Assembly (NCBI GenBank): GCA_037367355.1
Contig: CM074695.1
Span: forward strand, 4,712,001-4,776,000
DNA from: Neoscytalidium dimidiatum
Taxonomy: Eukaryota > Ascomycota > Dothideomycetes > Botryosphaeriales > Botryosphaeriaceae
Reading direction: 5' to 3'
DNA length: 64,000 nt
The notes under the pieces are model-generated. The model ran no database searches. It was not told where the DNA came from and was given only the letters and a program-made list of their open reading frames with translations. The stretch's first letter is position 1. Every line of letters begins with the position of its first letter. Below are positions 15,327 through 60,816 of this stretch, one piece after another. A program made the translations under genes and the position numbers.

Positions 15327-17298
15327 TTATAATGCCTGCGATTCCCATCTACTCAGGCAGTCCTGTGCAATCTTGCTGACATGCACGAGGCCCCTCAACG
15401 CCTCCTGGAGCGACACCTGCATCTCAAATGCCGGATCCAGATGCGGGTTTGACCTGAGGAAATCGAGACAGAAGTACACGAGAACTGGCATGAAGGGGTG
15501 AACCTGACGGGTCCGCATCACCAGGGATTAGCGAGTGCTTCTTGCAAAGCGGAGATGCCGGCTGCGGCAGGCTTACCTTGAAGTGGCTTAGCTGGGCGAG
15601 CGATTTCGAAAGAGTGACCATCTGCTGGGCGGCGGCGGCGGCGCGGTCCTCGTACTCGTTGATGACGCTTTGGTGGTCGTCCAGGCCCCAAGGTGCCGCC
15701 CGGCTGGCCTTGTGGAGCATCAGCACCGCGGCCTGCGCCGCCATGTGCGTGAACAGGGGCATCGGGTCTATGTACACCAGGGCACACGGATCGTACGCGG
15801 ACATGCTTTCCAGGCGCTGCGTGAGCCGCGTGTCTAGCCGCCGGTGCCGGTCCCAGAAGTCGAGCGAGAAGTAGCCGTACGTATGCTCGACGGTGCCCTG
15901 CTGATGGTGCGAGAGGCTCTGTCCGCACAAGGTGACAAGGCGGATGAATTCCGCAAAGGTAGAGTGTGCATTTGTCTGGCAGCCGAGGTCCAGCTCCGAA
16001 AGAAAATCCATGACGATTACCTGCTCGCTTTGAAACTCGTTCTCGGGAGCAGGGAGTCGAGTCAGGATCTGGAAGAATTCAATCAGTCGGGCCCCGTCCA
16101 CCCGGATTCCCACCTGGAGGGGGGAGGGGCCATACTCACCACGTGTTGGTCGAATGTCAACGGCAGGTGATCCAGGAGACTGATGAAGCGGTCGATGGTG
16201 TAGGCCATCCAGAAAGTTCTGCGCCGCTCTTCTACCTCCGCCCAACTCAGCGTCGATGGTGACTCGACGCCGACTCCGTCAGGGCCGTCGATATTGTGCA
16301 GCTTTATTAGCACCGCGAACCGGAAGCACTTCCCCGCGCTTATCCAACCTTTCTGGTAGCCAACGCGCATGAGCTCGTAGATTGACAGTAGCGCCAAAGC
16401 CTGGACCTGCTCGATCTGGATGCAGTCTGCGTGCAACGTGTCCAGGCTGTCCAGCATCAATCGTGCGTGTGCGTACAAGTCATCCTGCAGGTACTGGAAT
16501 TGGCTGGACGTAGACACGGCCAGCGTCCACATGGCGTGCTGCAAACAGGAAAAAGCATTCACCTCGCTCAGCTGCGAGCACCTAGTCCGTGAGAAGTAGT
16601 GGCGCTTGCAAAGGATTGGGCAGAAAGTATGCGCTCTGTCAAAGTAGAGGTGGTCCCTACCGTTCCCCCATACGATCAGCCATGCGTCAAGATTTCCAAA
16701 GATCGGGTCGTCTGCAGAACGTACAGATCTGCCCGTACCAAGTCGGAGATGCGGTCAACCGGGGAAATTCCAATTAAGGGAGGCGTTCTCAGATCCACAG
16801 CGGAACCGTTGGGCGACAGGCTGCATTCTACGTGCTTATCCTGCATGCTATCGTGCATGTTCTGGACAAGCATTCCATCGAGAAACTGGACGGGGGCCGC
16901 ATTGGACTCATTCTCGTCTGGAAACGTCATAAACTCGTTGTCGAACGTATCTCCGATATTCTGTTCCTCGAGGATCTGATCGCTCAAGCGGCGTTCGAGT
17001 GCTACTGTTAACATTGTCAGTTTGATGAAATACACTGAACGAGGGGTCGTGATTCACTAATACGGGACTGCAATGCCCGAAGGTGGCCCTTCTTGGGCCC
17101 ACGAGGCTGGCGAGTGGTGGTTCTATTGCAAATAACTCCGGACTCCTTGCACACACCGCAGGACGGCTGTCCACGATCGCATCGCAGCTTCCGCCTGCGG
17201 CACTCATCGCAAGCGAGGCCTCCTTGTTGGCGAGAACGGGGAGCTACCGATAGAGGTGAGTCCTCTTGGGTCGTAGTCTTGGGGCTTGAGGGCATCAT
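15327..17298 (-). CDS. Zn2Cys6 transcription factor, likely cluster regulator
   Basis: A fungal binuclear-zinc transcription factor, about 566-568 aa. The N-terminus carries [11 protein letters not shown] and [11 protein letters not shown], the full six-cysteine Zn2Cys6 pattern, followed by a basic linker. The rest is a fungal_trans middle homology region ([15 protein letters not shown], then [20 protein letters not shown]). Five exons: 17298-about 17058, 17004-16725, 16656-16140, 16068-15577 and 15503-15327. The first donor could be GTGAAT (17057) or GTATTA (17063); both keep the frame. It is divergent from an FSH1 hydrolase and lies at the left edge of the polyketide cluster, so pathway-specific control is a reasonable inference. 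Proteins of this class bind CGG triplets; see the CGG-containing promoter repeats listed below. Confidence 0.9.
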
Positions 17299-17852
17299 TG
17301 CTCTTGACGGCCCCGACCATGCACCCTTGGAGGGGGCTTTTTGTAGATGGCGTCCTCGCTACATGGACAATTGCGAGTCGCAATTAGGAGCTGATTCGCA
17401 CCTAGATGCGACCATGCTTAGGTCGTGTCATAACCCTTCCAAGGCCTGATTACCGGCAGACCGCGGGTTGAGGTGCTTTGCATGTGTACGTGGGCAAACC
17501 GGTCTCTCCGTGACACACTTCCCTATCACAGGGGTGGCGCCTTAGTCATAGTACATTCGAAGAAAAAGGTAATAATAAGCGAAAGTAGAACCCGCCCTAT
17601 GATCCGTGCCGGGAACCACCAACAACGCTGCTGTTGTGGACAACTTTAATCCTCCCAGTCTGAGTACAATACAAGTGCGTCGCTCGTGTTATGCAGTTTA
17701 AGATTAGAGGGGCTGGTGCCCATCACCGAACTTCTCAGCAGGGCTGATATCCACCTCCGAACCTCTTAGCAGCGCCACAACCCGCTGCACAACCCCGACC
17801 TGTGTCATCACCATTCCGCCGCTGAGTGCCGCAGAAATATTCGTACGCAATA
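17299..17852. promoter_or_regulatory. Divergent promoter, regulator / FSH1 hydrolase
   Basis: A 554-bp spacer between two divergent starts. It contains an inverted CGG-N5-CCG element at 17500-17510 (CGGTCTCTCCG), a classical layout for Zn2Cys6 dimers. The same layout occurs in the PKS1/PKS2 promoter. Use by the neighbouring regulator is inference. Confidence 0.4.
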
Positions 17853-18605
17853 ATGGACAGTCAGACCGAGGCCACCACGCTCCACCTACCCCGCATTCTC
17901 TGCCTTCACGGCGGTGGTACGAACGCACGCATCTTCCGAGCTCAATGCCGCAGCCTGTCTAGCCTGCTTCGACGTAAGTTCCGGCTCGTATTTGCAGACG
18001 CGCCGTTCCCCTCCGAGGCCGGGCCAGACGTGCTCTCGGTGTACAAGGATTGGGGTCCCTTCAAGGCCTGGTTCCAGTGGGCCCCCGACGAGCCGGAGCG
18101 AGATATTGAAGCCCACTACGCGGCAATACAGACCAACTTGGACTCGGCTATGCGCGAGGACGACCGGAAGGGAGCTACAGGCGAATGGGTCGCGCTGCTT
18201 GGTTTCAGTCAGGGCGCCAAACTGGCGGGCAGCCTACTTCTGCTCGAGCAGCAACGTCGTGCCAGTCTGCACCTTGGCACGCCGCCTGAGAAGCTGGGTC
18301 CTAGCCTGAGATTTGCGGTCCTGCTGGCCGGACGGGCGCCCTTGGTGAATCTCCTTCCTGTCGGGGACGACGCGCAGGCCCCGGCACTGCTGCAACTGCC
18401 GACAATCCACGTGCACGGACTGTTGGATCCAGGGTTGTCGTTGCACAGGCAGTTGCGGCAGCAATGCTGCGAAGAGAAGTCCACGAAGCTGGTGGAATGG
18501 CAGGGAAACCACCGACTGCCCATCAAGACTCAAGACACGGTGGCGATCGTTCAGGCCATCCTGGCAACCGCTGAAGAAACTGGGGTGCTGAATAGCGGTG
18601 TTTGA
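17853..18605 (+). CDS. FSH1-family serine hydrolase (LovG/AfoC-like)
   Basis: A single-exon alpha/beta-hydrolase of 250 aa (259 if the upstream in-frame ATG at 17826 is used). It starts with the typical FSH1 signature PRILCLHGGGTNARIF. It has FADAPFPSEAGPDV, the nucleophile elbow LLGFSQGAKLAG, and the late His in EWQGNHRLP; the Asp is probably in VHGLLDPG. In fungal clusters this family trims or releases polyketide chains from PKSs that lack a thioesterase (LovG) or removes aberrant chains. A similar hydrolase accompanies NR-PKSs with R domains in azaphilone and citrinin-type clusters. It is divergent from the regulator. A second member lies at 60817-61701. Confidence 0.9.
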   Translation: MDSQTEATTLHLPRILCLHGGGTNARIFRAQCRSLSSLLRRKFRLVFADAPFPSEAGPDVLSVYKDWGPFKAWFQWAPDEPERDIEAHYAAIQTNLDSAMREDDRKGATGEWVALLGFSQGAKLAGSLLLLEQQRRASLHLGTPPEKLGPSLRFAVLLAGRAPLVNLLPVGDDAQAPALLQLPTIHVHGLLDPGLSLHRQLRQQCCEEKSTKLVEWQGNHRLPIKTQDTVAIVQAILATAEETGVLNSGV

Positions 18606-19126: not shown

Positions 19127-20269
19127 CTAGTAGGAGCCTCGGCGCGCCGGTATCCAAGGGTCTGCGTCCCCAAGCTTCTCGACGGTCAGGCCAGCATTGC
19201 CAGGGTTCCGCATTCCAGCCTGCAGCTGCCGTTTGTATGAGAAAAGTCGTAATCGTTCGGCCTCTCGCGGAGTAAGTTGCAACTAAGAGGAGCGCGGTCA
19301 GCTCCCTGATTCGTGTCAGAGTACGGGCGAGCGGGACCAAAGTGCAGCTCACATATACTTCCACTCCGATTGCGTGGAGAGCAAGAGCGAGCCACAGAGC
19401 CATGCCGAACGTGACTCCCAGGGCTGCGCTTGCTTCGGCGGCTGTGCTGCCAAAATTGGCGTTGACCACTACTTGCTGGCCGGGATTCGAGCCGTCGTAG
19501 AAACTGATACATTCCGGATAGTGCTGAAGTGTGGCTTCCATCTGGGAGTTGAAGATGTAATCCAGTTGACCGCATGGGCGCGCTGTGTAGTAGTTTTTCT
19601 GTCTCGCCACGATCCTGGCTGCGGTGATGACAATAATGCGAACGGTAATAATGCAGCCTGCCTGCTATGAGTCAGCAGCAGCCGAGGAGGACCACGGTGG
19701 GGAGATACTACATAGAGCCAGCCCCTCAACATCCATGCCCGATGCTGGTCGATTTGTAACATCTTTACGTTGTAGTACGCGAGCGACATAGCGCCCACCG
19801 TCATGATCGCCAACACCCCTGAAGCGACTTGTGTCTCGACTTCTCCGCCAAAGGAGTACCGGACAAACATGAACATCCCGGCGGTGCCGATAAGAAAAAG
19901 CGCCAGAACGAGGTAGCCGTTGATCCGGTGGAACCTCATGGCCTTGTGGCGTACGACAGGTACGAATTGAAAGACAGCGAGAAACCCCGCAGGCAGGACG
20001 CTCCCGAGATGCATGAGCATTCCGACTCTGTAGATTCCGTGGTCATACCAGTAACATTCCCCGGGTGATGCCGTACTGATGGTGCGACCTATCCTCTCCC
20101 GGTTGCAGTAAACTCCATCATAGTCCAGGTACTGGAATTTGGCCAGAGTAAACCCCAGCATAGCGCCACCGAAAACAATGAATAATATAAAGTTGTATCC
20201 CTTGGCAAAGCCGCTCCCGCGCCGGATTTTCGCCCATGCTGTGGCTTCGAATGGACTGAGGATCCGCAT
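19127..20269 (-). CDS. DUF2306-like multi-pass membrane protein
   Basis: Predicted 340 aa in three exons: 20269-19712, 19661-19353 and 19282-19127. The last exon was chosen over two alternative readings because it gives LTPREAERLRLFSYKRQL and NPGNAGLTVEKLGDADPW, the conserved C-terminal pattern of this family. Hydrophobic segments include NFILFIVFGGAMLGFTLA, YLVLALFLIGTAGMFMFVRY, VLAIMTVGAMSLAYYNV, and another around the exon 2/3 boundary. HRAWMLRGWLY is the characteristic His/Arg motif on the membrane side. Members are predicted membrane proteins of unknown role and recur in fungal secondary-metabolite clusters. A role in redox chemistry or export cannot be told from the sequence. Confidence 0.8.
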
Positions 20270-20399
20270 TTCGACTGGCGAGCTCCTGTGTTTGTTCTTG
20301 TCTGATCCGACCTGACGCGCATTCTCTCCCGTGCTTTTATGGCAGTCGGACGTGCACTTCGATCCCGGATTACTATCAACTGATTGTCTAAATGTGCCG

Positions 20400-21436
20400 A
20401 AGATCGAGAATTAACATCGCTAATTCTTAGTTATAAGACCGAAAATCTAAATATATAAGAATAAAGTCGGCGCTAGCACTAAATAATTTCCAAGTAGATA
20501 GATAACGTAATCGGAGTATCTATACTCAGACGGAGAAACTTTAAAAAATAGCCGTAGCTTAAAATAATAAATTTAAAAATAGAACTTAAATTCTAACTTT
20601 TATTTCTACTAATAAATAATATTACTATTTTATTATTTTCTATTATTTATTAGCTTTCTAGATTTATATAAAAAATTAAATATAAATAAAGAATTTAAAA
20701 ATATTAATAAATAAAAATAATAAATAAATAAATAGTAAATAATATTATATAAATAATATAAAAGCTAATAGTTTCTATATATTTTATAATAAAATTAATT
20801 TATATTTAATATAAATTATAAAATAAAAATTTACTATATAAAAATATAAGTTTTTAAAGATATTAAAAATATATAAAAATTATATAATAATTTAAAAGTT
20901 AATAAAGAAATAAAATTAAAAAAAAATTAAAAAATTAGTATTTATAAATAGATAATTTAATTAAAAAAAGTTTAATTAGTTAATTTTAATTAAAATTATA
21001 TTTTTTTTATTTTATTATTAGAATTTTATTAATTATATATTAATAGCCTTTTTTTTATAATAGTTTTTAATTATTTATCTATCTATAGTCTAGTATATAA
21101 TAAAATATATATAATTTTATTTTATTAAAGAATATTTATTAGTAAATTTAAATATAATTTAAATAAAATATTAAATTATAAATGAATAGTTAAAAAGACT
21201 TATATAATTTTTATATAATTATTATTATAATATGGTCTTTATAAAAAGAATATAATAATTTTAAAAAGAAATATAAGAATCTAAATAGTAGAATAAGATA
21301 TTATATAAAAAAAGCTTATATATTTAAAGTTATATAGAATCTACTAGTACTCTTAGATAATAGTATACTAAGAGTACCGCTAATAGATAATATAGAATAT
21401 TTTTATAAAATAGTATATAAGTTCTTATATATTAGA
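20400..21436. repeat. Extremely AT-rich block, probable RIP-mutated repeat
   Basis: About 1 kb almost without G or C; the 60 bases from 20641, for example, contain only five. No open frame of note. Boundaries on both sides are sharp. This composition in Pezizomycotina is typical of transposon copies heavily mutated by repeat-induced point mutation. The original element cannot be identified. Confidence 0.7.
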
Positions 21437-21780
21437 TTGTTACGAACCCCACGGGCTTTATAGCCGCGAGGGCCGCGAGCCCGCACGGGAAGACCAGGAA
21501 CACGGGACAACGGTGCGCACGAGAACACCAGCAGGCAACAACGACTGCCCGCACGGGAAGGACGCCTACGGGCGCAACGACTAGGAAGAGGGCACGGGCC
21601 AACGTAGAGCCGCAGGGGACGAAGGACCGCACGGGCGGGAATTAGGAAAGCCGACAAGGATAAGAGTATCGCGGTAATATCGTCCGCTAGCACTAGCAGA
21701 AGTCGGATTCCCGAAAAGCAGGCTTTAGCGCCCGAGTCACGTAAAACCCATAGGACCCACACGGGATCAGAACTAATCCA
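21437..21780. repeat. GC-rich island with recurrent CACGGG words
   Basis: A 340-bp segment inside the AT-rich block with normal to high GC content. The word CACGGG recurs at least seven times, with one TACGGG variant. It begins TGTTACGAACCC, which recalls the start of fungal Ty3/gypsy LTRs, but no matching 3' terminus or target-site duplication was found. It does not look coding, although one minus-strand frame is open for 119 codons. Confidence 0.4.
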
Positions 21781-21820
21781 AACCTCTAATCTAAGGCTCT
21801 AATCCAATACTATAATCCCC

Positions 21821-22070
21821 AGATTGCCATAGCTTTTCTACAGTATATAGACACACTCGTTAGATAGTATTTTGACCCTCGTAGTCAACTTAAAGTTCTA
21901 ATTTAATACTATATTAACTTAGAGGTAACAAGGCCTACTAAACTCCCACGTTACGTAACTTCTTATTCTATTATTACTCCCCTTTCCTCGTCTTTAAGGT
22001 AAACCCTTCGATAAATCCGAACCTACTAGGTGACTCCGAAGCCTAGTGGTAGAGGCCCCGTCGTTATATA
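21821..22070. repeat. Direct repeat, copy A
   Basis: About 250 bp, repeated 269-270 bp downstream. The last 150 bp is best conserved, from AGAGGTAACAAGGCCTACTA to the CCCCGTCGTTATA end. Near the 3' end, GCCTAGTGGTAGAGGC looks like a tRNA D-arm / pol III A box. This copy keeps C and G where copy B has T and A. Confidence 0.8.
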
Positions 22071-22089
22071 GATATATAATAGTTTTATT

Positions 22090-22339
22090 AGATTATATAT
22101 ACTTTTCTATTTATATATAAGCTATACTTTTTAAATAGCTTTAACCCTTATAGTTAACTTAAAATTCTAATCTAGACTTAAAGTCTAATTAGAGGTAATA
22201 AGGCCTACTAAACTTCTATATTATATAACTTCTTATTCTATTATTGCTTCTCTTTCCTCGTCTTTAAGGTAAACCCTTCGATAAACCTAAACCTGCTAGG
22301 TGACTCCGAAGCCTAGTGGTAGAGGCCCCGTCGTTATAA
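22090..22339. repeat. Direct repeat, copy B
   Basis: The second copy of the 250-bp unit. Relative to copy A most differences are C-to-T or G-to-A (for example CCCTCGTAGTCAAC against CCCTTATAGTTAAC), the RIP signature. The terminal AAGCCTAGTGGTAGAGGCCC segment is identical in both copies. Confidence 0.8.
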
Positions 22340-23510
22340 CTATATTACGATATACGGCTTAATATCGATAGGCGTGCCACGGTGGCGCTTAAAGCTTCTT
22401 ACCCTGCAAGTTATCTAAAAGGCGTCCATTTCGCCTGCTCGCCGTTAAGTTTCTCCGAATCCCGCAGCGTCCATAGTTTTTCGCCACTTCCGCTTTGCCG
22501 CTCGAAATAGCAATCGTATCATCATCGCAGTTCACGACTCTCATTCTCTGCCTGTGTCGCATCACAATTGGCCAGGGGAAAAAATGTCAACAAGCGCCTC
22601 GTATTCCCAACCAACGTGTGTGTCAGCCTCCCGCGGCCTTGCGGCGCCAATCTTGCCGAAGCTAGCTTACTCGACTGCAGGGCGCGATTGCAGTCTTGAG
22701 TCAAAGCATATCAGACTGCATTACCGGCCGTGTACCGCGCAAATATGCCCAACGTTGCGTATTAGTGCCGACTTTCCCTTAATGCTCGCCAGCTACTAGG
22801 CAAACCGCCCTCACCGCCGCCAATAACCGGGATTACTTCCTCTTCCAGAGGCGCAATTTGCTGCTTCCAACTGACAAGCACACCGACATCTGCCAACTTT
22901 CGCAGTTCCTGCCCACCGCCATTTACGGTTTGCAATCCTTCGGGATCCGATGTGAATTTGCAACCCACTTCCCTCCCACACCCCACACCCGGTCGAGACG
23001 GCTGTCGACACGTGATTGTGGAACGGTATTTCCACCGCCGGTGTTGATTTCTCCCGCATCCTACGGTGCCTGTAGCGTCATGACCCATCGGCGATGCTTA
23101 ACGTGCAAAGCTTGAACTAGAGAGAGAGAGAGAGAGAGACCGAAAGTGCGGCCAGCCGAATTGAAGAAGATGCCCGCAGCCCGTAAGACCAGCGTTGATT
23201 CGACCATGCGCATGACGGATTCAGCTCCTCGTCCGACGGCCGTGCTGCTTTCAACTGTTATCACCGCATTCCCGCGGAAGGTCTCATTGCAGTGACCGGA
23301 CAGTCATCTTAGAAGTCGAACATGTGCTCAGATAAGTATATGAATTAAGAGTGACAAAGAGAAAATAAAAACCACCATTTTTAACTCCTATAGGGACCAA
23401 GAGAAACACTATTCTATCCCTAACGCCGCACAACATCTCCTTAAAACCAAAAAAAAAAAAAAAGAAACCAAAAAAACCGGCCCGATTTCTGACTCTATAT
23501 AGTAACTTCC
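22340..23510. other. Intergenic region downstream of PKS1
   Basis: About 1.2 kb of ordinary composition. Short open frames only. A (GA)n microsatellite of about 18 bp lies at 23122-23139 and a poly-A tract near 23450. The PKS1 terminator probably lies in the last 200 bp. Confidence 0.5.
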
Positions 23511-26500
23511 CTACGCCGCGGCAACTGCAGACGCCAAGGCCGGGCTGATGTGGGAGCTCTTGCCAGCAATCGTCGTCGCCAGCGCGGTCAGACTCGCGGC
23601 CTGCATGATGTCGAAGATGGATACCTCGGCGCCGGCCTTGAGGGCCAGAGCGTTGCGCAGCTCGACGGCCGTCAGCGAGTCGACGCCGAACTCGGCCATC
23701 GATTTGTTCGGAAAGACCTCCGCCTCGGGGATCATGAAGATGTCCATGAGCTTCGCCGTCACCTCGGCCGCGACGGCGCCCGCCGCCTCCTCCATCGTCT
23801 TGGCCCGCGCGATCCGACGCGCGAGATTGTCAGCCTGATCGTCCGTGTCGCCCCCGTCTCCCGCGCCGCTGCGGAACTTGGCGGGCCAGAAGCGCAGGTC
23901 GCGCGCGGCGGGCCCGCCCTCGTCCCAGAAGGCGCTGCTGGGCGACGTGTTGATGCCGAAGATGAGCTGCCCGGCGTAGGGATCCGTCACGGCGCACTCG
24001 AGCGCCTTGAGCACGTCGCCCTCGCTGAGGATCATGTGCCCTTGCTTCTTGAGGTACGCGTTCGTGTCTTCGTGCTCGGCAACGTAGCCGACGTTTTTGA
24101 CGGCGCCGATGTCGATGGAGACGGCGGGCAAGCCCTGAGATATGCGGTACTGTGCCAGCGCGTCCTGGAAGGAGCCGCCGGCGCCGTAGTTGCACTGCGA
24201 GGCGATGCCTATGACGCCGGCCACGGAGGACAGGATGACGAAGAAATCGAGCGGGGTTGAAGCGAAAGTGGTGTGTAGGTTCCAAGTGCCCTGCACCTTG
24301 GGCCGCAGCCCGGCTGTGTAGTCCGAGAGCGACATCTGCTCGAGGATCGAGTCCTGCGGAGAAACGTCAGTCTAGGAGTAGTAATTGGAGGCATGCACGG
24401 CGATTACTCACCCGCAGGACCATTGCGCCCTGGATTACACCGCGAACCGGGGGCATGTCGTCGGCGCAGCTCGCAATCGCACGCTTGACGTCTGCCTCGT
24501 CGGCAATGTCGCAGCCGATGGGCTTCACCTCGCAGCCCAGCTTCCTCAGCTCGGCCAGAAGCGGCGCTGCTTTGTCCGCGCTGCTGGCACTGCGGGACAG
24601 AACGATGAGGTTTCTGGCACCGTGCTCGGCCAGCCAGAAGCAGATGCTCTGGCCAATGCCACCGAAACCACCGACAACGACGTAGGATGCGTCCGGGCGC
24701 AGCTTGGCTACTGGAGCATGGGGGATTGTCTACCACATTTGTCAGAGGCCTGCGTCCATGGAGCACATGGACATCTCCACTTACCGGAACCAAACTGTCA
24801 GGCTTCACTGACAGCACAGTCTTGCCTGGAGTCTTGCCGGATGAGGCATTACGGAACGCCTGCACCACATCCGAGATATCGTGCCTCGAAACGGGCACGC
24901 CGCGGATCTTCCTGGTCTTGACGAGGTCGAAGACCGTGTGCAGGGCCCGGCTGACCTGCTGTCCCTTCCGCTCAGCCAGCATCACCAGGTCGACGGTCGA
25001 GAAGGAGACGCCACGGGCAAAGGCGGCCATGTCGAGGCGGCTGCTCTGCTCGACGTCCTTCTTGCCCAGCTCAACGAACCGGCCCAGCGGCGCCACGCAA
25101 TCGAGACTCTCCCGCAGCAGCGCGCCTTCCAGCGTGTTCAGCACCACGTCGACGCCCCTGCCGCCCGTCCTGGCCAGCACGCCGGCGGCGAGCCTGTCAT
25201 CGGCAGGGAAGATACGGTCCTGCGGCACGCCCAGCACGCCCCTGACGAAGCTCGTCTGGTCTGGGCTCGCGACGGTGACGAAGACGTCGGCGCCCGCGTG
25301 CTTCGCGAGCGCCACTGCCGCCTGGCCAACGGCGCCCGCTGCATCGTGGACCAGCACGCTCTCGCCCTCGGCCAGCCGCGCGGCGTCCATCAGCGCGACC
25401 CAGGCCGTCGCGTACGCAACCGGCAGCGCGGCGGCCATCTCAAAGCCCATGTCGTCGGGAACGCGCACGGCGCTCGTCCACGGCACGCGTACGCGGCTGG
25501 CGATGCCGTCGCCGTGCAGCAGGGCGGCCACGCGGTCCCCGGGCTTGAAGCCGGTGGCGGCGGACGCGCGGACGACGAGGCCGGCGCACTCGAAGCCCAT
25601 GCGGCGGTCCTGCAGCGCGCCCGTGGCGACGCTGACGTCGCGAGACGAGATGCCGAAGGCGCGAGGGGCGATTTCGAGCTCGTCTTCGGCAAGGCTCTGC
25701 TCGCTGCGCGGGCCGGCGGGGCCGAAGACGAGCGAGTCCAGCTGGCCGGGCCTCTCGACGGTGAGGCGCAGCGGGGCGTCGGGGCTGGCGAAGGGCTGGG
25801 GCACGGCATGGGTGGTCTCGGTGGGGTTGGGGAACCACGTGCTGTTGCGGGTGTGGTCCTTGAAGTAGCGGAGGATGTTGACGGCGCCGCCGCGCTCGGC
25901 GAACTCGTAGTCGCGCGGCTCGCTGGCGGGAGCGGAGAGGTCCGCAAAGAGCTCGGAGACGACGCTGGCGATGGCGTCGACAGAGGGAGCAGACCAGGCG
26001 TCGCGTGAGGGGTCGAGGTCGAGGGTGCCGATGCGCTTGCCGACGTACTCGAGGCGTAGGATGCGCGTGAAGCCCTGGGCCAGGCTGGCGAGAGGATCGC
26101 TGACGTCGACGGCACCGCCGCGGGTTACCCAGAGGAGGCCCTTGGACGTGGTGCACAGGGTGCGCAGGGCTTCGAACTGCGCGTCGTCGGGGCTCGCGAG
26201 GACGGAGCTGCTCAGTTCGCCGACGAAGATGACCATTTTGCCCTCGCAGTCGACGCTGTCGTAAGGCTGCACGGCTGGCACCGCGCCGGTGATGGCAGAG
26301 ATGGAGCTGCTCAGCATGTCGAGCCAGGGCTGAGGCGGCGCGGTCTTGGGAGTCGCGACGACGACTTCGGGCTGATAGGCGCTAGCAGGCGTCTCCGCAG
26401 ACGACGCCATGACGCTGTAGGTGTACAGGTCGTCGCTCTCGCAGTCGCGCACATGGAGCTCAACGCCGCCAAAACCGCCACGACGCAGCTCCGTGTCCCA

Positions 26501-29500
26501 CTGCTCGACGCTCAGCAACGGGCTTGTCCGGCGGGCTTCCTCGGTGCCCAGCCACTGGTCGGGCAGTAGTCCCAGTGCGAGCTGCACGTCCAGCTGCTCC
26601 TTGGTCGGCTCCATCAGCAGCAGCGTGCCGCCGGGCTTCAGCAGCTTGCGAACGTTGGACACGGCGGCGGCGACGGACGTCGTCTTGTGCAGCACCTGGC
26701 TGGCGAGCACCAGGTCGTACGACTCGGGCTCGAAGCCCTGCGCGGCCGGGTCCTGCTCGATGTCGAGCTTCTTGAAGGCCAGCAGGCCCTTCCAGTCCTG
26801 CAGGTCCTCCTCGGCCGCGTCGAAGAAGGCTTCGGACACGTCGGTGAAGTCGTACGCGGCGGCGAGCGGATCCTCGACGCCGAGCGCCCTCAGCGCATGC
26901 CGCGTCGCGCCGCCGCTGCCCGCGCCGATCTCGAGGATGCGCGCGCGCGGCTTCTTGTGTGCGTGCAGGCGCACCAGCTCGGCGAGCTGGCTGCGGCTGC
27001 GGTCCAGCTTCAGGCCCTCGGCGTAGAAGCGGTACAGCCGCTGGTCCTCCTGCATGAGCGCGAGGGGCGACACCAGCCCGCGCAGCACGTCGGCCAGGCG
27101 CGGCCCCAGGCTGCAGACGAGCTCGCCGTTGATGCTGCGGGCGGCGACCTTGGCCGCGAGCGCCGCCTTCTCCTGCGGACTCGTGGTGGCGGCGGCGGCG
27201 GCGGCGGCCGCGGCGTGCTGCTGCATCCACGCGTAGTAGCGCTTGAAGTGGCCCTCCAGCGCGCGCGCTTCGGCCGGGCTGAGGGCTGCCAGAGCGTCCT
27301 GGATGAACCAGGAGCTCACGCGCTTCAGGTCGGCCAGCGCCTGCGCTTCGGCGGCGTCGGGCTCGGCCGCGAGGTGCTTCTGCAGCAGCGCCGGCGCCGT
27401 CAGGGTCGGGTCGGGCACCCAGCGGGCGGTCAGGAACTTGTCGTTCTCGCAGGGATCGCGGGCGCCCAGGGCGCTGCCGATGGACTGGAAGAAGAAGTCG
27501 TCGATGCGCACGACGGGCTCTTCGGCCGCCTCGCGCGTCACCGTCACGCCCGCCCTGAAGCCCTCCTTGTCGGCGTCGCGCACGCTCGAGAAGGCCCGGA
27601 AGCGGTCGCCGGGCGCGGTGCGGGCCATGTCGCCGGCAATCCACAGCTCCTTGATCGAGCGCGGCACCTGCGCCGAAGTCATGCTGGCGCCCGCGTCGGG
27701 CAGGGCGGCGTAGACGGCCTGGAAGACGCTGTCCAGCGTCGTGGGGTGCACGACGTGCGGCTGCTCGTGCTGGTACGGCATGGTGGCGGCCGTGTCGACC
27801 ACCTCGAGCGTGGCCAGCGAGCCCGCGTCGCGCGCCCGCACCGCCTTGAGGTTCTGGAAGATGGGCCCATGCTGGATGCCCACGCGCCGCATCGACTCGT
27901 ACACGTCGGCCGGGCTGATGCGGAAGCGGAAGTCGCTCTCGTCGCGCACCGGCTCGGTGCTGCTGCTGTTGTTTTTGTCGACGTTGCTGCTGCGGCGAAC
28001 CGGCAGCGCTGCCTGCTTCGTCGCCACGCCGTGGCTCGCCGGCTCTTCGTTTGCGGTGGCGCTGTCTGGCGTCTTGCGGCCGGGAGCACCGTCACTCGCC
28101 GGTGAGATGTAGCCGCTGTCGTGGGCGCTCTCGGAACTGCCGCCGTCGTCGTCGCCGCCGCCGCCGCCGCCCGCAGGAGCCCCCAGCGCCGCGTTCAAGC
28201 AGGCGAGCAGCCCCGGCAAGTCGGTGATGGCCATCAGCTGCTCCTGGGGGAGCGTGCACTTGAAGGCCGTCTCGATCTCGCGCGCCATTTCCATGCCCAT
28301 CAGCGAGTCCACCCCGATGTCGGCCAGCTCGGTGTCGTCCTTGATCTCCTCCGGCTCGAGGCCGGATATGTCGGCCAGGATCAGCTTGAGCTCCTTGACC
28401 GTGGCCGCCGCCCTGGGCGGCGCTGAGGGAGCGGCGACGGGCTCGGCGCGAACCGCGGGCGCAGAGGGCGCGATGGGGCCGGCAGGCGGGTTGGCATGGG
28501 TGGCCGTGTCCGCGGCGGCCGTCAGCCTGGTCAGGAGCTTGCCCATCGACGCCTTGGACACCCTCGCGTAGTTGATGCCCAGCACGACCTCGGCCAGGCC
28601 GCCGCTCTTTGCGTCGAAAACGAAGATGTCGGTGAGAAACGAGCTGCCGTCCGGCGCGCGCGCGTGCTGGGCCAAGACGTGCCATTCGTCGGCCGCGGGC
28701 AGGCCCCGGGGCGACCGCACCCACTGGCGGATGCCGTTGGCAATGTACATGTCCGCCGGGTCGCGGTCGGTCATGCAGTTGGCCCAGATGCCGCCGACCT
28801 GGCAGAAGGCGTCCGCCAGGAAGGCGTCCAGCCAGGACCGGCCCGAGTGCTTCTTGACGACGCGCCCGGCCGACGCGTCGCCCTTGGCCACCAGCTTCTG
28901 CAGCCCGCGGTACTGCTCGCCGTAGTCGACAATCTCGGCGAAGACGCGGTAGATGCTGCGGCCCTGCATCACCTCGTCGGCGCCGTCGTCGTCGAGGAGC
29001 CGCAGGCAGCCCTGGTGCGTGACGCTCTGCTCGCACCGCGCGAACTCGGACTGCTCGCCGCCGCGCAGCACCAGCTCGCCCGTGACGTGCGTGGTGGGAG
29101 CAGCGCCCGACGCGCCCGTGCTGGCCATCTTCCACGCCCACGTCAGGCGGGCCGGGTCCAGCGCCTCGAGGTCCAGCCAGACGGCCCTCGTCGGGTCGAC
29201 GCACACGGGCACGAGGTTGGCGACGTTGCGGACGTGGCTCAGCGGCGCCGCGCCGGCGTGCAGGCTGTGCAGCGCTTCGATGGCGAGGTCTATCTGCACC
29301 GTGGCCGGGCAGATGGGCGCCGCGCCCGCGATCTTGTGGCCCGCAACGAGCTTCTCGTACTCGGCCGCCGCCGTGTTGACGCGGAAGCGGGCCGCACGCT
29401 GCTGGCTGTCCTGGTACCCGACGAACGTCCAGAGCCCGCCGCCGCTCGTCACCGCCGTCGGCCTGGGGGGCTCCTTGAGCTCGAGCCAGTGCCTCTGCCG

Positions 29501-32500
29501 GTCGAACTGGTACGGCGGCAGCAGGATGTGGGCGTATTCGTGCGTTTGGTGCCTCGAATGGCCCCAGAACGCTACGCGGAGCCCCGCCTTCCAGAGACTA
29601 ATCGTCGTGTCGACGAGCTTCTGGAGGCACTGCGTGCTGGAAATGTTCACGGCCTGGAAGTGGTGCGAGCTGGGCGCTTCCAGCGCTTTGGAGGCCATGT
29701 GCGTCACCGTCGCATTCGAGCCGGCCTCGAGCCAGATGGCACTGGGGTGCTCCCTGGCGATGCGTTGGATTGCGTGGTTGAAGTAGACGGGATTTCGCAG
29801 GTGCTCGGCGAAGAAGTCCTCCGAGAAGCTGGCCGTCGACCGCTCTTCCGTCGCCCTCTCCAAGGGAATCGTGGCCTCGTTGAAGGTCAAACCTTCGCCT
29901 ATCTTGGCCAGCTGCGGCTTCAGCTCATCGACCAGAGTGGAATGATATGCGTTGGAGACATTCAACCTCTTGAATCTCGTGGCGGGGAACTTGGACTTGA
30001 TGGTTTCGACGACCGCGTCAACGGTCGCGACAGACCCTGCCACAGTGTGACTCGTCGGGCCGTTGAAGCAGGCAATTGTCGCAGGCGTGCCGGACTCGTT
30101 GATGAGCGCCGCAACTGCGTCGGCATCGGCCTCCACGGCCAGCATCGACCCCTTTTCTGGACCCCACGCATCTCTGATGATCGTCGCGCGCCTGACGACA
30201 GCCTTCATGGCGTCCCGCAGGCTGAGGACGCCGGAGATGCAGAGCGCGCTGATCTCGCCGAAGCTGTGCCCAACGACCGCCACCGGCTTGACGCCGCAGC
30301 CGATCCAGCTCCGGGCCGCCGAGTACTGCAACGAGAAGAGCGCCGTTTGCAGGGAGACAATGTCTTGGAGAGGCTCCTTCTGAAACACGTGCGGGTATAT
30401 GCTGCCGGCACCAAGGCTTCGAGCCACGGCGTCGCACGTGTCGAGATGTCTGCGCAGGATGGCGACGTTGTCATAAACCTGGCGGTCGAGGCCGACGGAG
30501 GTGTTGATCTGTCCGCCAAAGCAGAGGACGACGGGCCTCGACGGTGGCAGGGAGACTCCACCGGCGCTCTCAAGTGCCGCCAGCTTCTCGTCCAGCTCCT
30601 CGGTGGACGCAGCCGTGAATATGGCCGCCCGCTCCAAGTGTCGGTTGGACTGGCGTGCCATGTTGAACGAGAGGTCAGCGATCGAGGAGTCCGTCTTGGT
30701 CTTTCGGAAGCGGCGGAGCCTCGCCGCGTAGGCGCGGATGCTCCTGTCGTCGGATCCGCACAGCCAGAACGGGTACTTGAGTCCCACAGGCGCGGCAGAG
30801 CTTCCGATCGACTTCGCCGGCTTCGGCGCCTGGGTGACGACCATGGACGCGTTGGAGCCCGAGGCACCGTAGTTGTTGATGAGCGCGGCCTTGAAGTCGG
30901 CGTCCCACGGCTGCAGCTGGGTGGATATCTGCATCTTGTCTTCCGGCGTGGCGTGGATCGAAGGGTTCATCTTGGAGAAGCTGGCCTGGGGTGGGATGCG
31001 GCCTTCCTGCATCATGAGCAGGATCTTGGCCAACGAGACCACCCCCGATGAGCCTTCGGTGTGCCCAACCAGCCCTTTCACCGACCCCAGCTGCAGCGGC
31101 TTGCTGCGCGTGTGGCCGCCAAAGACGCTGCGGATGCTCTCGTACTCGGCGGGGTCTCCCACGGGGGTGCCCGTTCCATGTGCCTCGACCACCGACACTT
31201 GGCTGGGCTCGAGTCCGGACCGACGCACGACGGTGCGGAAGAGGTCGGACAGCGAGGGCGCGTTGGGCACGACGATGGGCGTGCAGTTCTCGTTCTGCTG
31301 GACCGCGGTGCTGGACACGACGCCCAAGATCTGGTCGCCGTCGGCGACGGCGGCGGACATGTCCTTCAGGAAGACGGCGGCGACGGCTTCGCCGCGGCAG
31401 TAGCCGTCGGCCAGGGCGTCGAACGGCTTGCACTGCCCGGTGGGGCTCAAGAAGGAAGCGCCCGCCAGGTTCTGGAAGAGCAAGGGGTGCGTCATGATGT
31501 TGGTCCCGCCGGCAAGAGCAGCGATGCAGTCGCCGCTGAGGATGGCGCGGCAGGCCTGGTGCACCGCCACGGCGGAGCCGGAGCAGGCTGTATCGACGGT
31601 CAATCCGGGGCCGGTCCAGCCGAAGTAGTGGCTGATCTTGCCCGCGATGAAGCCGCGCAGGTTCCCCGTCGCGGTGAAGGCGTTCGGCGGGTGACAGGCG
31701 ACGTTTTCGGCGTAGTCGGTGCCGCAGACGCCAACAAAACAGCCAATGCTCCTTTCCTCGCGGGCGGACTCGAAGTAGCCCGACTGCTCTACAGCCTGGT
31801 AGGCGACCTGCATGAGCAGCCGCTGCTGAGGGTCCATGGATGCCGACTCTCTGGGAGTCTTCTTGAAGAACTTGTGGTCGAAGGTGTCGTGGTGGCTGAC
31901 GAAGTTTCCATACCACGTCTTCTTCGCGTCATTCTCGCGGAACACCGTGTCGAAGCCGAAGCGGTCGCGCGGCACCGGCATGTGCTGTGATTTGCCCTCG
32001 GCGAGCAGCTGCCAGAATTCGCCCGCATCGTCGGCGCCGGCAACGTTGATGGACAGGCCGACCACGGCGACCTCGTTCGGCGAGCGCTGCGGGAGCGCCA
32101 CGTCCTCAAAATGGAGCACTTGCGTGCTGAGGCTGCGGAGCAGAGACGGGGGAACGCACCGCTCGGGCCCGAAGCAGACCATCTTTGCGTCCTTGCTGGC
32201 CAGTCGCGACGATGTGACTTCCGCGAGCGTGTTGTACCATTCAGCCCTCTCGAGGAGAATGGCCCTGAGAGCGACTTCGTGGAGAGCTCCGCTGTTCGCA
32301 AACCCCCCCTTCGAATTGGACCGCACAGGAGTCCGGACCGACGAGGCATCCGGCAGGGAAAAGTCAGAGTTCGCGCTGCAGAATTGCAATATTTCGTCGA
32401 TGGAGGAACCGTGCTTCTGGCTGTGGAAACGTCCGCACAGGCCGATTTCTGCGACAGTAAACCCCGCGAGCTTGAGCTCCCGCTCCAAAGCCGCAGCCGA

Positions 32501-33387
32501 TCTACGAGAGGTGGTAATTGAAACGCGGTTCTCGTCATACACTACCGACACGTAGGCCTGCTTTCGTCAGCATTGTTCTGACACGCAAAGGAGGAACAGG
32601 TAGGGTGGGTTGCGTCACTGGTCCGATTGTAGGAGTGTCGGCAGTGAAGCGTCCGGCACATGCAAGACCGACACCCTTTGGATCCAGGCGAAGGATGTTT
32701 GAAACTAATCAAGCTTTGCTAACCACAGCTGCCAGAGCAAACTTTAAATGGAAGCCGTGCTCATGGCCATTGACTCACATCTGCAAACGGATCGATCACC
32801 TTCGCCACTTCCTTCTCGACGTCACGAGTCTTGGAAGCTACCGTAAAAGTAGTGGACGGACCACTCTCGTCCAAGGCATCCTGAGCATCTACGACGGCCC
32901 CGGTAAGCATTGCGAGTCGCACAGCCGCCGCTGCGTTCTTCTCGAACTCCCTTTTGGTGGCGCTGCTGGACACAACCAGGGCACTGAGGAGGCCGGTACA
33001 GAAACCCACGGCTTCCGACGCTGGGAGTGCCTCGGGCTCGCGGAGGCTGACGTAGGTTGTATATTGAGTCAGCTGCGACATGACAACGAGAGGACTCAAC
33101 AGGACGTTAGGTAGGTGATGCGCGCCCAAAGTGCCATCCTTGATCCAGTTGCCCAGTTCTGGCAGGTGAGAGGCGCCTGCAGCAGCGCTGAGCTTTGGAA
33201 ACTTCTTGCAGAGGAGGTCCAGTTGCTCTGGCAGCTCCTCGACGATGCGCAAGGCCCAATTGTGGTTCGGTGAGCTCAGCACGGTGGAGCTTAGTTTTCG
33301 GAACGATGGTTGGTCAAAAGAGAGGGCTTGCGAGCCGAAAAGAAGAACAGTTTCCGTGTTCGGAGAGAGTGGAAGGGGGCTAGCCAT
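23511..33387 (-). CDS. PKS1: chimeric SAT-KS-AT-PT-ACP // DHc-MT-ER-KR-ACP synthase
   Basis: Predicted 3,180 aa; exons 33387-32779, 32557-24785, 24729-24412 and 24353-23511. An ATG at 33408 is possible. Non-reducing half: SAT (GFCTG Cys; GRFHS His), KS (DTACSGS near residue 528, EAHGTGT, GHTEGSSG), AT (GHSFGE near 967), PT (GHKIAGAAPICPA near 1276; DAFCQVGGIWANC near 1450) and ACP (GVDSLMG near 1619). After a low-complexity linker (residues about 1663-1745) the protein turns into a highly reducing PKS from mid-DH. DH C-lobe: VGIQHGPIFQNL and HPTTLDSVF, without the N-lobe HxxxGxxxxP. Then MT (EIGAGSGGAT near 2079), ER (AAGAVGQAAVALA near 2612), KR (VVVGGFGGIGQS; NYGAGGSFQDALA) and a second ACP (GVDSLTAVELRN near 3123). 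No TE or R domain. The 3' half completes the enzyme begun in PKS2. Confidence 0.9.
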
Positions 33388-33883
33388 AGTCGAAGATAGG
33401 CGGTTCAAGTCTCGGAGGGGACTCGAAGCGACGAGGGAGGCAAATTGATGACCACTTGAAGAGAACGTTTGCGACAGATGCTATAGCTTGTTGAACAGCC
33501 GCTTGCCGGGGATCACAGGGAAACAGCAAGGGAATCAAGTCCTCAAGTAAGCAATCTGTTCGAGGGAATAGAGGCATGACCGGCATCACCAACGGCAAGT
33601 TCCTTCGGATACTCCGGTGCGGACTATCTTCTTTGTTTCATGCTCGGAGTAACTTCTCGGATTCTGGCCGGCACTTGCCAATACCCCGACGATCTATCAG
33701 ACATGCGGAGGCATTCCAGCTCTCCATGTGTGGAAAGTGCCCTTCATAAATAAAAACAAATTTGAAAGGTTCAACAGAGACTTTAGGTACACACAGGCCC
33801 CAGACGTATTCCCATTAGCTTTTCCCCCTCGCTCAGGCATCGCGGAGGTTACTTTGTCTGCAGAATCTCAACTCAACGTTATT
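33388..33883. promoter_or_regulatory. Divergent promoter, PKS1 / PKS2
   Basis: A 496-bp spacer between two head-to-head PKS starts. It contains a CGG-N5-CCG inverted element at 33606-33616 (CGGATACTCCG) and two TCGGA words in direct orientation near 33643-33661, possible Zn2Cys6 sites. Under the inversion model this promoter lies inside the inverted segment and so still drives the same two N-terminal halves. Confidence 0.5.
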
Positions 33884-47290: not shown

Positions 47291-48409
47291 TCACAAAGTC
47301 ACAACAACCTTCCTTGCAGAAACGCCCTTCTTCACAATATCCAAAGCGTCCTGGATATGCTCAAGCCCTTTCCCGACCACATAGGGCTCGGGCGCGGCAA
47401 CATATCTGCCAGAGGCCAATGCGTCTGGAAGAAAGCGCTCGTATATGGCGCTGCCAACTTCGTTTGCCATGAGGTCGTCTCCCCAGATGAACTTGGCGCC
47501 AATTCCCTTGACTTTGCACTGGAAAAAGGTCGAGACGTTGAACCATAAGAATGATGCGATGAAGGAGACGAGAGCCATGCCCTGGGGTGGGATCTCCGCG
47601 GGCATGGGCACGCTGGCCTGCGCGATAAACTTGCGCCCCTGCGACGCGGCCACGATGTCGATGCAAGCTTCCATTGAGCCCTGGCCGATGGCGATGGCGC
47701 CAACGCTTCGTTTGCCCTTCAGCGCGGCGATGATGTCGGCCACAGCTGTGGGGCTGCGGTAGTCGAAAACCTTGCTGGCTCCCAACTGGGTGACGTAGTC
47801 GAAGTTCTTGGGTGAGGCGGTGGTGATGACTTCGTATCCCGCCGCGACCGCGAGCTGGATGGCATTGCTACCGAGACTGGTCGAGCCACCCCAGACGAGC
47901 AGAGTCTGGCCTGTTGCATTCTTGGCCGTCTTGAGTGAGGGGTGGTCGAGGGCGAGGAAGTCCTTCATGAACAGTCCGCAGGCGGCGGTCGAGAGGCAGA
48001 GCGGCAGCACGCACGCCTTCTCATAGGATAGATCATCGGGGAGCGGCGACACGAGATTGGTGCGAAGGACGACGTAGTGTTGGAACGCGCCTTCGCATGC
48101 GCGGTTGCTCCTCTTGTCTATGCTGACGGCGTGGCCAAGCACTCGATCGCCGGGCTTGAAGCGGGAGACGCCGGGGCCGACTTGAACAACCTCGCCGGCA
48201 ACGTCGTCGCCCAGGATGAACGGGTATTTGATCCATCCCATCATGTTGTCTCCCATGGCCTGCTTCATGGCATCTACCGGGTTGACGGCGATTGCGCCTG
48301 CCTTGACGACAACTTCATTTGGGCCCGGCTCAGTGTAAGGCGCATCTTTGACCTGCAGAGGCCTGACTTGCTTGCCGACCAGCCATGCTGCTTTGTTGAC
48401 AGGTGACAT
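47291..48409 (-). CDS. MDR oxidoreductase, trans-enoyl-reductase type
   Basis: A single-exon protein of 372 aa starting at MSPVNKAAWL (Kozak-like CCAAGATGTC); the frame is open upstream to 48529 but that extension looks non-coding. It is a zinc-independent medium-chain reductase. The catalytic-domain pattern is IAVNPVDAMKQAMGD then YPFILGDDVAGEVVQVG. The nucleotide-binding domain is TLLVWGGSTSLGSNAIQLAV, then VFDYRSP. This is the pattern of the fungal LovC/ToxD-like family, members of which supply enoyl reduction in trans to PKSs or act as tailoring reductases. Both PKS3 and the PKS1 C-terminal half have their own ER, so a tailoring role is at least as likely. The candidate element at 48686-48697 lies 277 bp upstream. 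Confidence 0.88.
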   Translation of the reverse strand: MSPVNKAAWLVGKQVRPLQVKDAPYTEPGPNEVVVKAGAIAVNPVDAMKQAMGDNMMGWIKYPFILGDDVAGEVVQVGPGVSRFKPGDRVLGHAVSIDKRSNRACEGAFQHYVVLRTNLVSPLPDDLSYEKACVLPLCLSTAACGLFMKDFLALDHPSLKTAKNATGQTLLVWGGSTSLGSNAIQLAVAAGYEVITTASPKNFDYVTQLGASKVFDYRSPTAVADIIAALKGKRSVGAIAIGQGSMEACIDIVAASQGRKFIAQASVPMPAEIPPQGMALVSFIASFLWFNVSTFFQCKVKGIGAKFIWGDDLMANEVGSAIYERFLPDALASGRYVAAPEPYVVGKGLEHIQDALDIVKKGVSARKVVVTL

Positions 48410-49379
48410 CTTGGTGGCAACGGAGTGACTGTGGCGAGGAAACGTCAAGATGACTTGGGAAAATGGGCTTCTTGGTTTAGCAAGCTGCCTGACAAAGGTG
48501 GTGAAGAGGTGCGTTGGGCTCGGCAGCATTTGGACAGAGAGGTTTTTTTTTTCGTCATGGCAGCGGCGGGGGGGATCACGTTCCTCATTTGGGGCTTCGA
48601 CTTTGCTTCGAACTCTGACTCGTCAGTGAGGCTTGTGCGGGGAAACAGACCAGTCCGAACCATCCCAGTGGGCAGCACGCACGCCCGGAGTTCGGAGTTT
48701 CTAGGAACGGCCCAGTCGAGTTGCCCCGCTCCGTCTCCTGTCGCTGACTCTGAGATACTACTAAGGTTCTAGTGCCTGAGTATGACCTATTACGTTGGAG
48801 CCCAACCTCGTAAGTACTTGTATTCGTTGTTGTTGTCTGTTTTGTCTCTAAAGAAAGCGAAGGAGCTAAAATACCCAGCGCCGCGCTAAGCGTACCTGCC
48901 ATAACATATTGCGAGCATACTACATGAATTTCGTTTCCAATAAAGACACCCAAAATCACAGGCTGCTGCCAAGATAAAGATAAAAAGAAATGGGTCGGTT
49001 CACTTGTCGACGGGTCATATGGAGGGACGGCTGTCTGGGAACGAACTTGAAAGAGGTCAAGGTATTTTAAACTTTGAAGAGCGCGCATCGAATGCTTTAG
49101 CGTTAGGGTAGAGTGTAGAAGAATTATATTTTCGGGCTCAAGGTCTCTTTTTTCTTCCTTTCCTTTTGGTCCAGAAGTCCAGAAGACCAAATAAAGAAAC
49201 GTTTGGTGTCATGCCGCAGGAGAAAGGAGGTGGGCGGTCTTCGTTATCAATTGGCCTCATGCGTTGGGTGATGATGATGAAACATGAGACTACACTCCTC
49301 CATCGTCCTTCATTTATATTCGACTCTATGCGCGAAGAAACCCCGAAACACCACAATGAAGAAATATAACAGCAGCTCA
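48410..49379. other. Intergenic region with promoter of the MDR enzyme
   Basis: About 970 bp between the MDR start and the PKS3 stop, both minus-strand genes. Apart from the CGGAG repeat at 48686-48697, nothing recognised; short open frames only. Confidence 0.5.
48686..48697 (+). promoter_or_regulatory. Candidate regulator site CGGAGTTCGGAG
   Basis: A direct repeat of CGGAG with a TT spacer, the same layout as the CGGACTTCGGAC elements at 41766-41777 and 60666-60677. It is upstream of the trans-ER-type gene. Confidence 0.4.
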
Positions 49380-60593: not shown

Positions 60594-60816
60594 GGTGTCG
60601 GTATTTTGGAATGCTTGGGTGGGACGAAGACAAAGAAGAAGGGCTTTAAATATTAAGTCTCCCGTCGGACTTCGGACAATCGCCGAGGAAGTAGCAAGGT
60701 ACATCGTGCCGACTGGAAAGGAAAGTAAACGCTACCTTTTAGACAATGTCTACTTAAGATGCACTCTCTGCATTCCACGTCATCGATTTCGGCAGCTTTT
60801 CACCGGCGACATCAAA
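60594..60816. promoter_or_regulatory. Divergent promoter, P450 / FSH1 hydrolase
   Basis: A compact 223-bp bidirectional spacer that includes the direct-repeat element at 60666-60677. Confidence 0.5.
60666..60677 (+). promoter_or_regulatory. Candidate regulator site CGGACTTCGGAC
   Basis: A direct repeat of CGGAC with a TT spacer, 73 bp upstream of the P450 start and about 140 bp upstream of the FSH1 start. The identical 12-mer occurs on the other strand at 41766-41777. Confidence 0.45.

Follow-up and report, generated by a model that had tools for sequence, protein, structure and literature searches.

Exchanged halves of a non-reducing and a highly reducing polyketide synthase in Neoscytalidium dimidiatum point to an old inversion and a possible two-chain azaphilone-type system

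Sorbicillinoid clusters contain a highly reducing (HR) and a non-reducing (NR) polyketide synthase (PKS), SorA/SorB, with unswapped domains, together with the dearomatising flavoprotein SorC. Domains shared between polypeptides are also known from type I megasynthases: in the LovB/LovC type, the PKS relies on a whole stand-alone ER of another protein, and in fungal fatty acid synthase, two chains contribute to the malonyl/palmitoyl transferase. Closest to the locus described here are the pairs AzaB/AzaA, AfoG/AfoE, and CazF/CazM, which according to PMC8596599 have the same total domain set, a proposed starter hand-over, a flavin monooxygenase (FMO), and an O-acyltransferase (OAT). Each of these enzymes is one complete chain, whereas the products of two neighboring genes of N. 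dimidiatum, PKS1 and PKS2, each hold half of each enzyme. The genes are located in a stretch of 64,000 nucleotides of contig CM074695.1 (positions 4,712,001 to 4,776,000, assembly GCA_037367355.1), which is referred to as the window. Like the sorbicillinoid clusters, the window combines HR and NR parts with a SorC-like FAD monooxygenase, but its PKSs are swapped. In comparison with LovB/LovC, the partners would supply half a DH and ACPs to each other instead of a whole ER; the two-chain transferase of fatty acid synthase arose by an unrelated event and is a different domain from the PKS dehydratase concerned here.

PKS1 (23511..33387, minus strand; exons 33387-32779, 32557-24785, 24729-24412, and 24353-23511) encodes 3180 amino acids in the order SAT-KS-AT-PT-ACP / DH C-lobe-MT-psiKR-ER-KR-ACP, as deduced from Pfam, the spliced model, and the homologue P0001. 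PKS2 (33884..39633, plus strand; exons 33884-34069, 34117-34203, and 34255-39633) encodes 1883 amino acids in the order KS-AT-DH N-lobe / CMeT-R, based on Pfam, the spliced model, and the homologue P0121. Neither spliced model contains an internal stop. The genes are arranged head to head with start sites 0.5 kb apart. According to the gene models and the sequence, they share the intergenic region 33388..33883, which lies inside the inverted segment discussed below and is probably a bidirectional promoter. In the minus-strand open reading frame (ORF) 24404-32566, Pfam identified KS, AT, PP-binding, PF14765 (PS-DH, the DH C-lobe), methyltransferase, sdrA-like, and zinc-binding dehydrogenase (ER) domains; the adjoining minus-strand ORFs contained SAT (32761-33480) and KR plus ACP (23511-24371). 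The plus-strand ORF 34231-39633 contained KS, AT, PF21089 (DH N-lobe), HTH_51 (the CMeT of NR-PKSs), methyltransferase, and NAD_binding_4 (R); at an E-value of 0.001, PP-binding was not detected in it. The Pfam output gave no PT model, and the PT of PKS1 was placed via homology to P0035 and His/Asp motifs. A scan with catalytic motif patterns found all motifs sought on the expected chain and no phosphopantetheine site of an ACP in PKS2.

Four quarters can be distinguished, namely, the NR front (NRN), the HR back (HRC), the HR front (HRN), and the NR back (NRC); the domain boundaries in PKS1 are approximate. The NR N-half of PKS1 (28184..33387, minus strand) was assigned by Pfam, motifs, tiling with P0035, and the NRN tree and includes, after the SAT, KS (30815-32080), AT (29435-30814), PT (28547-29434), and ACP1 (28184-28405). 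The DH of fungal PKSs is a double hot-dog with the catalytic His in the N-lobe and the catalytic Asp in the C-lobe. In PKS1, only the C-lobe was found (27467..27934, minus strand; Pfam; 74% identity to Diplodia), with the catalytic Asp motif LDSVFQ at 27736. It is followed by the remaining HR C-half (23514..27466, minus strand; Pfam, motifs, HRC tree), which comprises MT (26378-27466), psiKR (25778-26377), ER (24718-25777), KR (23838-24717), and ACP2 (23514-23837). PKS2 starts with the HR N-half (33884..36741, plus strand; Pfam, motifs, HRN tree), consisting of KS (33884-35325) and AT (35326-36741), and continues with the DH N-lobe (36742..37155, plus strand; Pfam; 90% identity to Macrophomina), in which the catalytic His motif HALQGTVVYPG is located at 36844. 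The NR C-half (37219..39630, plus strand; Pfam, motifs, NRC tree) contains CMeT (37219-38367) and R (38368-39630); the CMeT part matches the citrinin PKS chain 5mpt (E-value 1e-117). The locus holds every domain of a group VII NR-PKS (SAT-KS-AT-PT-ACP-(CMeT)-R, PT by homology) and every domain of an HR-PKS (KS-AT-DH-MT-ER-KR-ACP). The single-chain NR order is broken, with ACP1 followed by the DH C-lobe and CMeT-R located on PKS2, and the contiguous DH is divided between both proteins. The original prediction, made from the DNA letters and their translated ORFs, of an NR-type N-half joined to an HR-type C-half from mid-DH in PKS1, and of an HR-type N-half up to mid-DH joined to CMeT-R in PKS2, was borne out by Pfam, spliced models, and motifs.

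Close homologues of all four quarters occur as intact HR/NR pairs in Pleosporales and Pleopsidium (P0003/P0122, P0013/P0044, P0010/P0048, P0009/P0052, and P0021/P0060; contigs of equal length for both members of each pair, and consecutive locus names in two of the five) and as the intact proteins P0002 of Neofusicoccum parvum and P0035 of N. ribis. In these proteins, the DH N-lobe precedes the DH C-lobe and the ACP precedes the CMeT in one chain, whereas both arrangements are split in the window. Using tblastn, residues 1-1713 of the NR-PKS P0035 (2542 amino acids) were aligned to 33387..28094 on the minus strand and residues 1714-2540 to 37153..39627 on the plus strand. The HR-PKS P0002 (2496 amino acids) aligned to PKS2 with residues 2 to about 1056, ending at the end of the DH N-lobe, and to 27937..23535 on the minus strand (PKS1) with residues 1070-2495; its tblastn piece on PKS2 extended to residue 1177, past the second junction. 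The NR and HR domain sets tile across PKS1 and PKS2 with none missing and none doubled, and the complementarity proposed earlier for the two genes was confirmed by intact relatives that each cover parts of both. The predicted breakpoints (27.93-28.18 and 37.15-37.21 kb) held and could be narrowed by tblastn tiling, gene models, and junction alignments. Junction J1 (27937..28097, minus strand) joins the NR ACP-CMeT linker to the HR inter-lobe linker, and junction J2 (37176..37201, plus strand) joins the inter-lobe linker of the HR DH to the NR pre-CMeT linker; in the junction alignments, both fall in linkers.

The same fusions are present in other genera. The PKS1 junction query (ACP-linker-DH C-lobe; best 7998 candidates scored) was covered by a single protein, P0001 of Diplodia intermedia (3042 amino acids, 62% identity over 98%; best 120 of 151 matches), and the other 119 listed matches reached a coverage of at most 60%. 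The PKS2 junction query yielded one protein with 100% coverage and 82% identity, P0121 of Macrophomina phaseolina MS6 (1885 amino acids; best 120 of 431 matches), followed by the N. parvum HR-PKS P0002 with 83% coverage and the HR order. A domain-order census of 198 proteins (196 fetched homologues and the two window proteins), which scores only these neighboring domains and includes many fragments, revealed 105 proteins with ACP before CMeT (NR) and 86 with DH N-lobe before DH C-lobe (HR). ACP before DH C-lobe was found in two (PKS1 and the Diplodia protein), DH N-lobe before CMeT in two (PKS2 and the Macrophomina protein), and neither order in three. The gap between ACP and DH C-lobe is 84 amino acids in both PKS1 and P0001, and the gap between DH N-lobe and CMeT is 22 amino acids in PKS2 and 23 in P0121. 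The comparison with orthologues suggested by the original prediction recovered both fusions at the same junctions. Its observation that both junctions are in frame stands; the accompanying argument, that chance would give this about one time in nine, is weak by itself, and selection is better supported by the fact that other genera have kept the fused frames.

We regard it as almost certain from these comparisons that a single inversion of a segment of about 9 kb in a resident HR/NR pair gave rise to PKS1 and PKS2. The ancestor would have carried azaphilone-type HR-PKS and NR-PKS genes arranged head to head. The inverted central segment would have comprised the NR front half, the shared promoter, and the HR front half, with one break in the NR enzyme, in the linker from ACP to CMeT, and the other in the HR dehydratase, between its two hot-dog lobes, so that the NR front became joined to the HR back (PKS1) and the HR front to the NR back (PKS2). 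Trees were calculated for each quarter with 13 or 14 rows (quick trees) or 12 or 13 rows (change counts and approximately unbiased (AU) tests). The rows were hand-picked as named, near full length, and mostly paired, and Podospora, whose branch is long in the NR trees, was left out of the latter set. The window protein and the other chimera formed a clade in all four trees (SH-aLRT 99, 100, 100, and 100), and every quarter could be explained by a single change from the intact to the chimeric state. Together with the complementary halves and the tiling, this supports the predicted exchange of 3' halves by one inversion. Because intact relatives flank the chimeras, with Neofusicoccum outside and Pleosporales nearest, the intact order is considered ancestral and the chimeric order derived. 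The placement of Neofusicoccum P0002 and P0035 outside chimeras and Pleosporales in all four quick trees, despite their family membership, points to transfer or old paralogy.

While the inversion was predicted correctly, its local character was not: a local inversion and an old, stable design had been set as alternatives, and the locus now appears to be both the product of an inversion and an old, stable design. Judged by the sequence comparisons, the inversion is old, has been retained in at least three lineages, and, barring later transfer, took place before the lineages of the window, Macrophomina, and Diplodia diverged. Two causes of the inversion were considered and rejected. None of 25 of the 57 inverted pairs connects J1 with J2, although the event is old and traces of inverted repeats could be gone. 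HR MT and NR CMeT are partly homologous (weak tblastn cross-matches) and would have been in opposite orientation before the inversion, but recombination between them is unlikely, since the breaks fall outside both domains.

The retention of the swapped forms in related genera suggests that the PKS1/PKS2 pair works as one shared machine, and both proteins are very probably functional. PKS1 and PKS2 may form one obligate two-chain system, probably expressed from one promoter. Matched amounts of both proteins are plausible because the joint domain set corresponds to one HR and one NR enzyme and the genes share one intergenic region. KS-AT, CMeT, and R of PKS2 would act on the ACPs of PKS1. A scan for GxDS(L/I/M) in 10.0-23.5 and 39.6-49.3 kb, aimed at a stand-alone ACP, resulted in one match, which lies in a frame with stops. 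The genome yielded no second copy of PKS2 or of its CMeT (26 of 89 candidates scored for PKS2), and the best other match to PKS2 in the same genome showed 43% identity over the KS-AT-DH part. In view of these negative results and of its own missing ACP, PKS2 most simply uses the ACPs of PKS1. At the only two other HTH_51 (CMeT) loci in the genome (C5:3.79 Mb and C3:2.29 Mb), the matches to PKS2 are 32-40% identical, and the SAT model gave eight further matches. The HR dehydratase would be restored by combining the His-bearing N-lobe of PKS2 with the Asp-bearing C-lobe of PKS1, a step towards which we lean slightly. The HR chain on ACP2 would be passed to the SAT on the same PKS1 chain and then extended, the CMeT of PKS2 would methylate it, and the R of PKS2 would release an aldehyde, from which the SorC/TropB/AfoD-like flavoprotein and the acyltransferase would form an azaphilone-type product. 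As a whole, the explanation by an inversion origin and an obligate two-chain azaphilone-type system is considered probable. The more detailed version, with an obligate two-protein synthase from one inversion, same-chain HR-to-NR hand-over, an ACP-less partner, a two-chain DH, and selection across several genera, stands at just better than even.

Several observations weigh against this reading. Both chimeras were seen together in the window only; Diplodia yielded the PKS1 type alone and Macrophomina the PKS2 type alone, and a third search, for shorter proteins (16 matches; best 8000 candidates scored), named no protein of the Botryosphaeriaceae. The Diplodia protein P0001 is without about 145 MT residues (218/363 aligned), which is due to either the gene model or a real deletion. 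AU tests rejected a clade of chimeras and Neofusicoccum in all quarters but one (p-values 0.0436, 0.00788, and 0.0104; 0.0805 in the remaining quarter). We are not aware of a PKS precedent in which two chains together make up a double hot-dog DH. The ratios of the distances to Pleosporales (chimera/Neofusicoccum) were highest in the DH N-lobe (1.45 and 1.59), the DH C-lobe (1.46 and 1.31), ACP1 (1.47 and 1.31), and MT (1.30 and 1.55), with 0.83-1.23 in the remaining domains; the high values in both lobes and ACP1, beside the breakpoints, might be a sign that selection was relaxed or altered.

These ratios, which are among the highest in both DH lobes, also favor the strongest rival explanation, which holds that the chimeras are kept as new enzymes in which the DH, and perhaps further domains that became separated, no longer act, e.g., with PKS1 building and reducing without dehydration and PKS2 providing CMeT and R in trans. 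A split DH would be costly, and PKS2 without an ACP motif cannot extend a chain alone. We consider this explanation rather unlikely, because the lobes retain their catalytic motifs (His and Asp) and almost every position that is invariant in intact rows (47 and 46 of 48 in the N-lobe; 33 and 34 of 36 in the C-lobe), and their conservation is like that of their neighbors. Between the window and Macrophomina, the identity is 91% for KS, 88% for AT, 90% for the DH N-lobe, 85% for CMeT, and 78% for R, with 48% in the linker. The corresponding values for Diplodia are 71% (SAT), 86% (KS), 75% (AT), 73% (PT), 76% (ACP1), 35% (linker), and 74% (DH C-lobe), followed in the HR back by 67% (MT, 218/363 aligned), 71% (psiKR), 74% (ER), 85% (KR), and 79% (ACP2). 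An accelerated evolution of the lobes, as suggested by the distance ratios, was not supported by the stem/total and crown/total branch lengths (30 bootstraps per domain, 15 domains). Stem/total was 0.050 for the DH N-lobe (KS 0.053, AT 0.042) and 0.032 for the DH C-lobe (other HR back domains 0.004-0.031, overlapping intervals). Crown/total was 0.048 for the N-lobe, lower than for any other of the 15 domains, whereas the C-lobe had 0.112 (ER 0.116, MT 0.153), and the bootstrap intervals of the lobes overlapped those of most other domains in both measures. The Neofusicoccum tips were short in both lobes and ACP1, which probably explains the raised distance ratios. The GC content at third codon positions (GC3) was 0.97 in the C-lobe and 0.88 in the N-lobe, within the range of the PKS1 (0.68-0.97) and PKS2 (0.80-0.88) domains. 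We read these data as ordinary purifying constraint on both lobes since their separation. As expected of a two-chain megasynthase, catalytic residues are kept on both chains and the separated lobes are under constraint.

The position of the chimera clade with Pleosporales rather than Neofusicoccum in all four quick trees (support 83, 99, 96, and 97), in line with AU p-values below 0.05 in three quarters, would also fit two independent fusions or a horizontal gain of ready-made fused genes. The fusions are complementary, adjacent, and head to head, and all four quarter trees place the chimeras alike, which makes an origin other than the inversion of a resident pair very unlikely. The family history of the cluster is, as far as the trees indicate, not simply vertical: the Neofusicoccum genes may represent another cluster lineage, or one of the two may have been transferred. 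A later transfer of an already inverted cluster between fungi may have occurred and would leave the inversion origin unchanged.

Still less probable are decaying remnants, i.e., two genes broken by the inversion with frames surviving by chance. Pseudogene decay was rejected in view of open frames of 3180 and 1883 codons in the window and of 1885 and 3042 amino acids in Macrophomina and Diplodia, of the motifs, of catalytic domains conserved well above the linkers, and of the GC3 values. The least likely alternative, and the main one in the original prediction, is an assembly error with 28.0-37.2 kb drawn in the wrong orientation and intact real genes; in principle, the related head-to-head KS-AT domains could mislead an assembler, but the deposited Diplodia and Macrophomina proteins are fused at the same places, and the assembly contains no second long copy of the junction DNA (the only matches span 33 bases at C9 and, with 78% identity, 77 bases at C1 2.1 Mb).

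The neighboring genes suggest a link between the inverted pair and azaphilone clusters; Pfam covered 30 of the 48 flanking ORFs listed. Adjacent to PKS2, an O-acyltransferase similar to trichothecene 3-O-acetyltransferase is encoded (40192..41610, minus strand; TRI-like_N and Transferase in Pfam, trichothecene 3-O-acetyltransferase structures), followed by an FAD monooxygenase (42053..43696, plus strand), whose nearest solved relatives are SorC (6.9e-111), TropB (1e-97), and AfoD (7.2e-95), and part of a TRI12-like major facilitator exporter (44330..44959, plus strand; Pfam). An FSH1-type serine hydrolase (17826..18605, plus strand; Pfam) is a candidate azaphilone serine hydrolase and candidate cluster member, and a second FSH1 protein was found at 60583-61701 (Pfam); neither is adjacent to the PKS pair. 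In PMC8596599, the azaphilone signature is given as nrPKS, hrPKS, serine hydrolase, FMO, and OAT, and the serine hydrolase is not present in every azaphilone cluster. The window contains a monooxygenase of the AzaH type, as judged by SorC, TropB, and AfoD, and an acyltransferase of the AzaD type, as judged by Pfam and the trichothecene 3-O-acetyltransferase structures. PKS1 and PKS2 provide the domain types of an azaphilone pair as halves, and Hfaza1A of Hypoxylon is among their kin in the NR trees. An azaphilone-type product of the pair is suggested as a prediction, because the SorC/TropB/AfoD-like flavoprotein and the acyltransferase fit this signature.

Further features were observed around the pair. 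The Fungal_trans domain of a transcription factor (16083-16754, minus strand) is located upstream of the cluster and could belong to a cluster regulator. An AT-rich stretch spans 20400-22800 (GC 0.29-0.33 over 20001-22000), and a repeat at about 21478-22068 with at least 44 further genome matches (77-92% identity) is probably a solo long terminal repeat or the relic of another kind of transposon next to the cluster. A further HR-PKS-like gene, which is not swapped, was found in pieces at 49380-56994 (minus strand) with KS, AT, DH (PF14765; PF21089 just below the cut-off), ER, KR, and ACP. It is adjoined by an alcohol dehydrogenase (47291-48622) and a P450 (58939-60291), and together they form either a second cluster or an extension of the PKS1/PKS2 cluster.

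We are not aware of any other case in nature in which an HR-PKS and an NR-PKS have traded halves. Such a swap was found neither among the listed titles and abstract beginnings of open-licence literature in PMC nor in passages of PMC8905617, PMC8336260, and PMC8596599. The parts are known, and the exchange of halves, the ACP-less PKS, and the divided DH appear new to us. Cluster tools may call such genes two broken or odd PKSs and predict a wrong product, which is a warning for genome mining. The locus shows cut sites that are tolerated in PKSs, between ACP and CMeT and between the DH lobes, and offers a case in which DH lobes acting in trans and the sharing of ACPs can be tested. If the explanation is true, the PKS1/PKS2 pair would be a natural experiment in megasynthase engineering.

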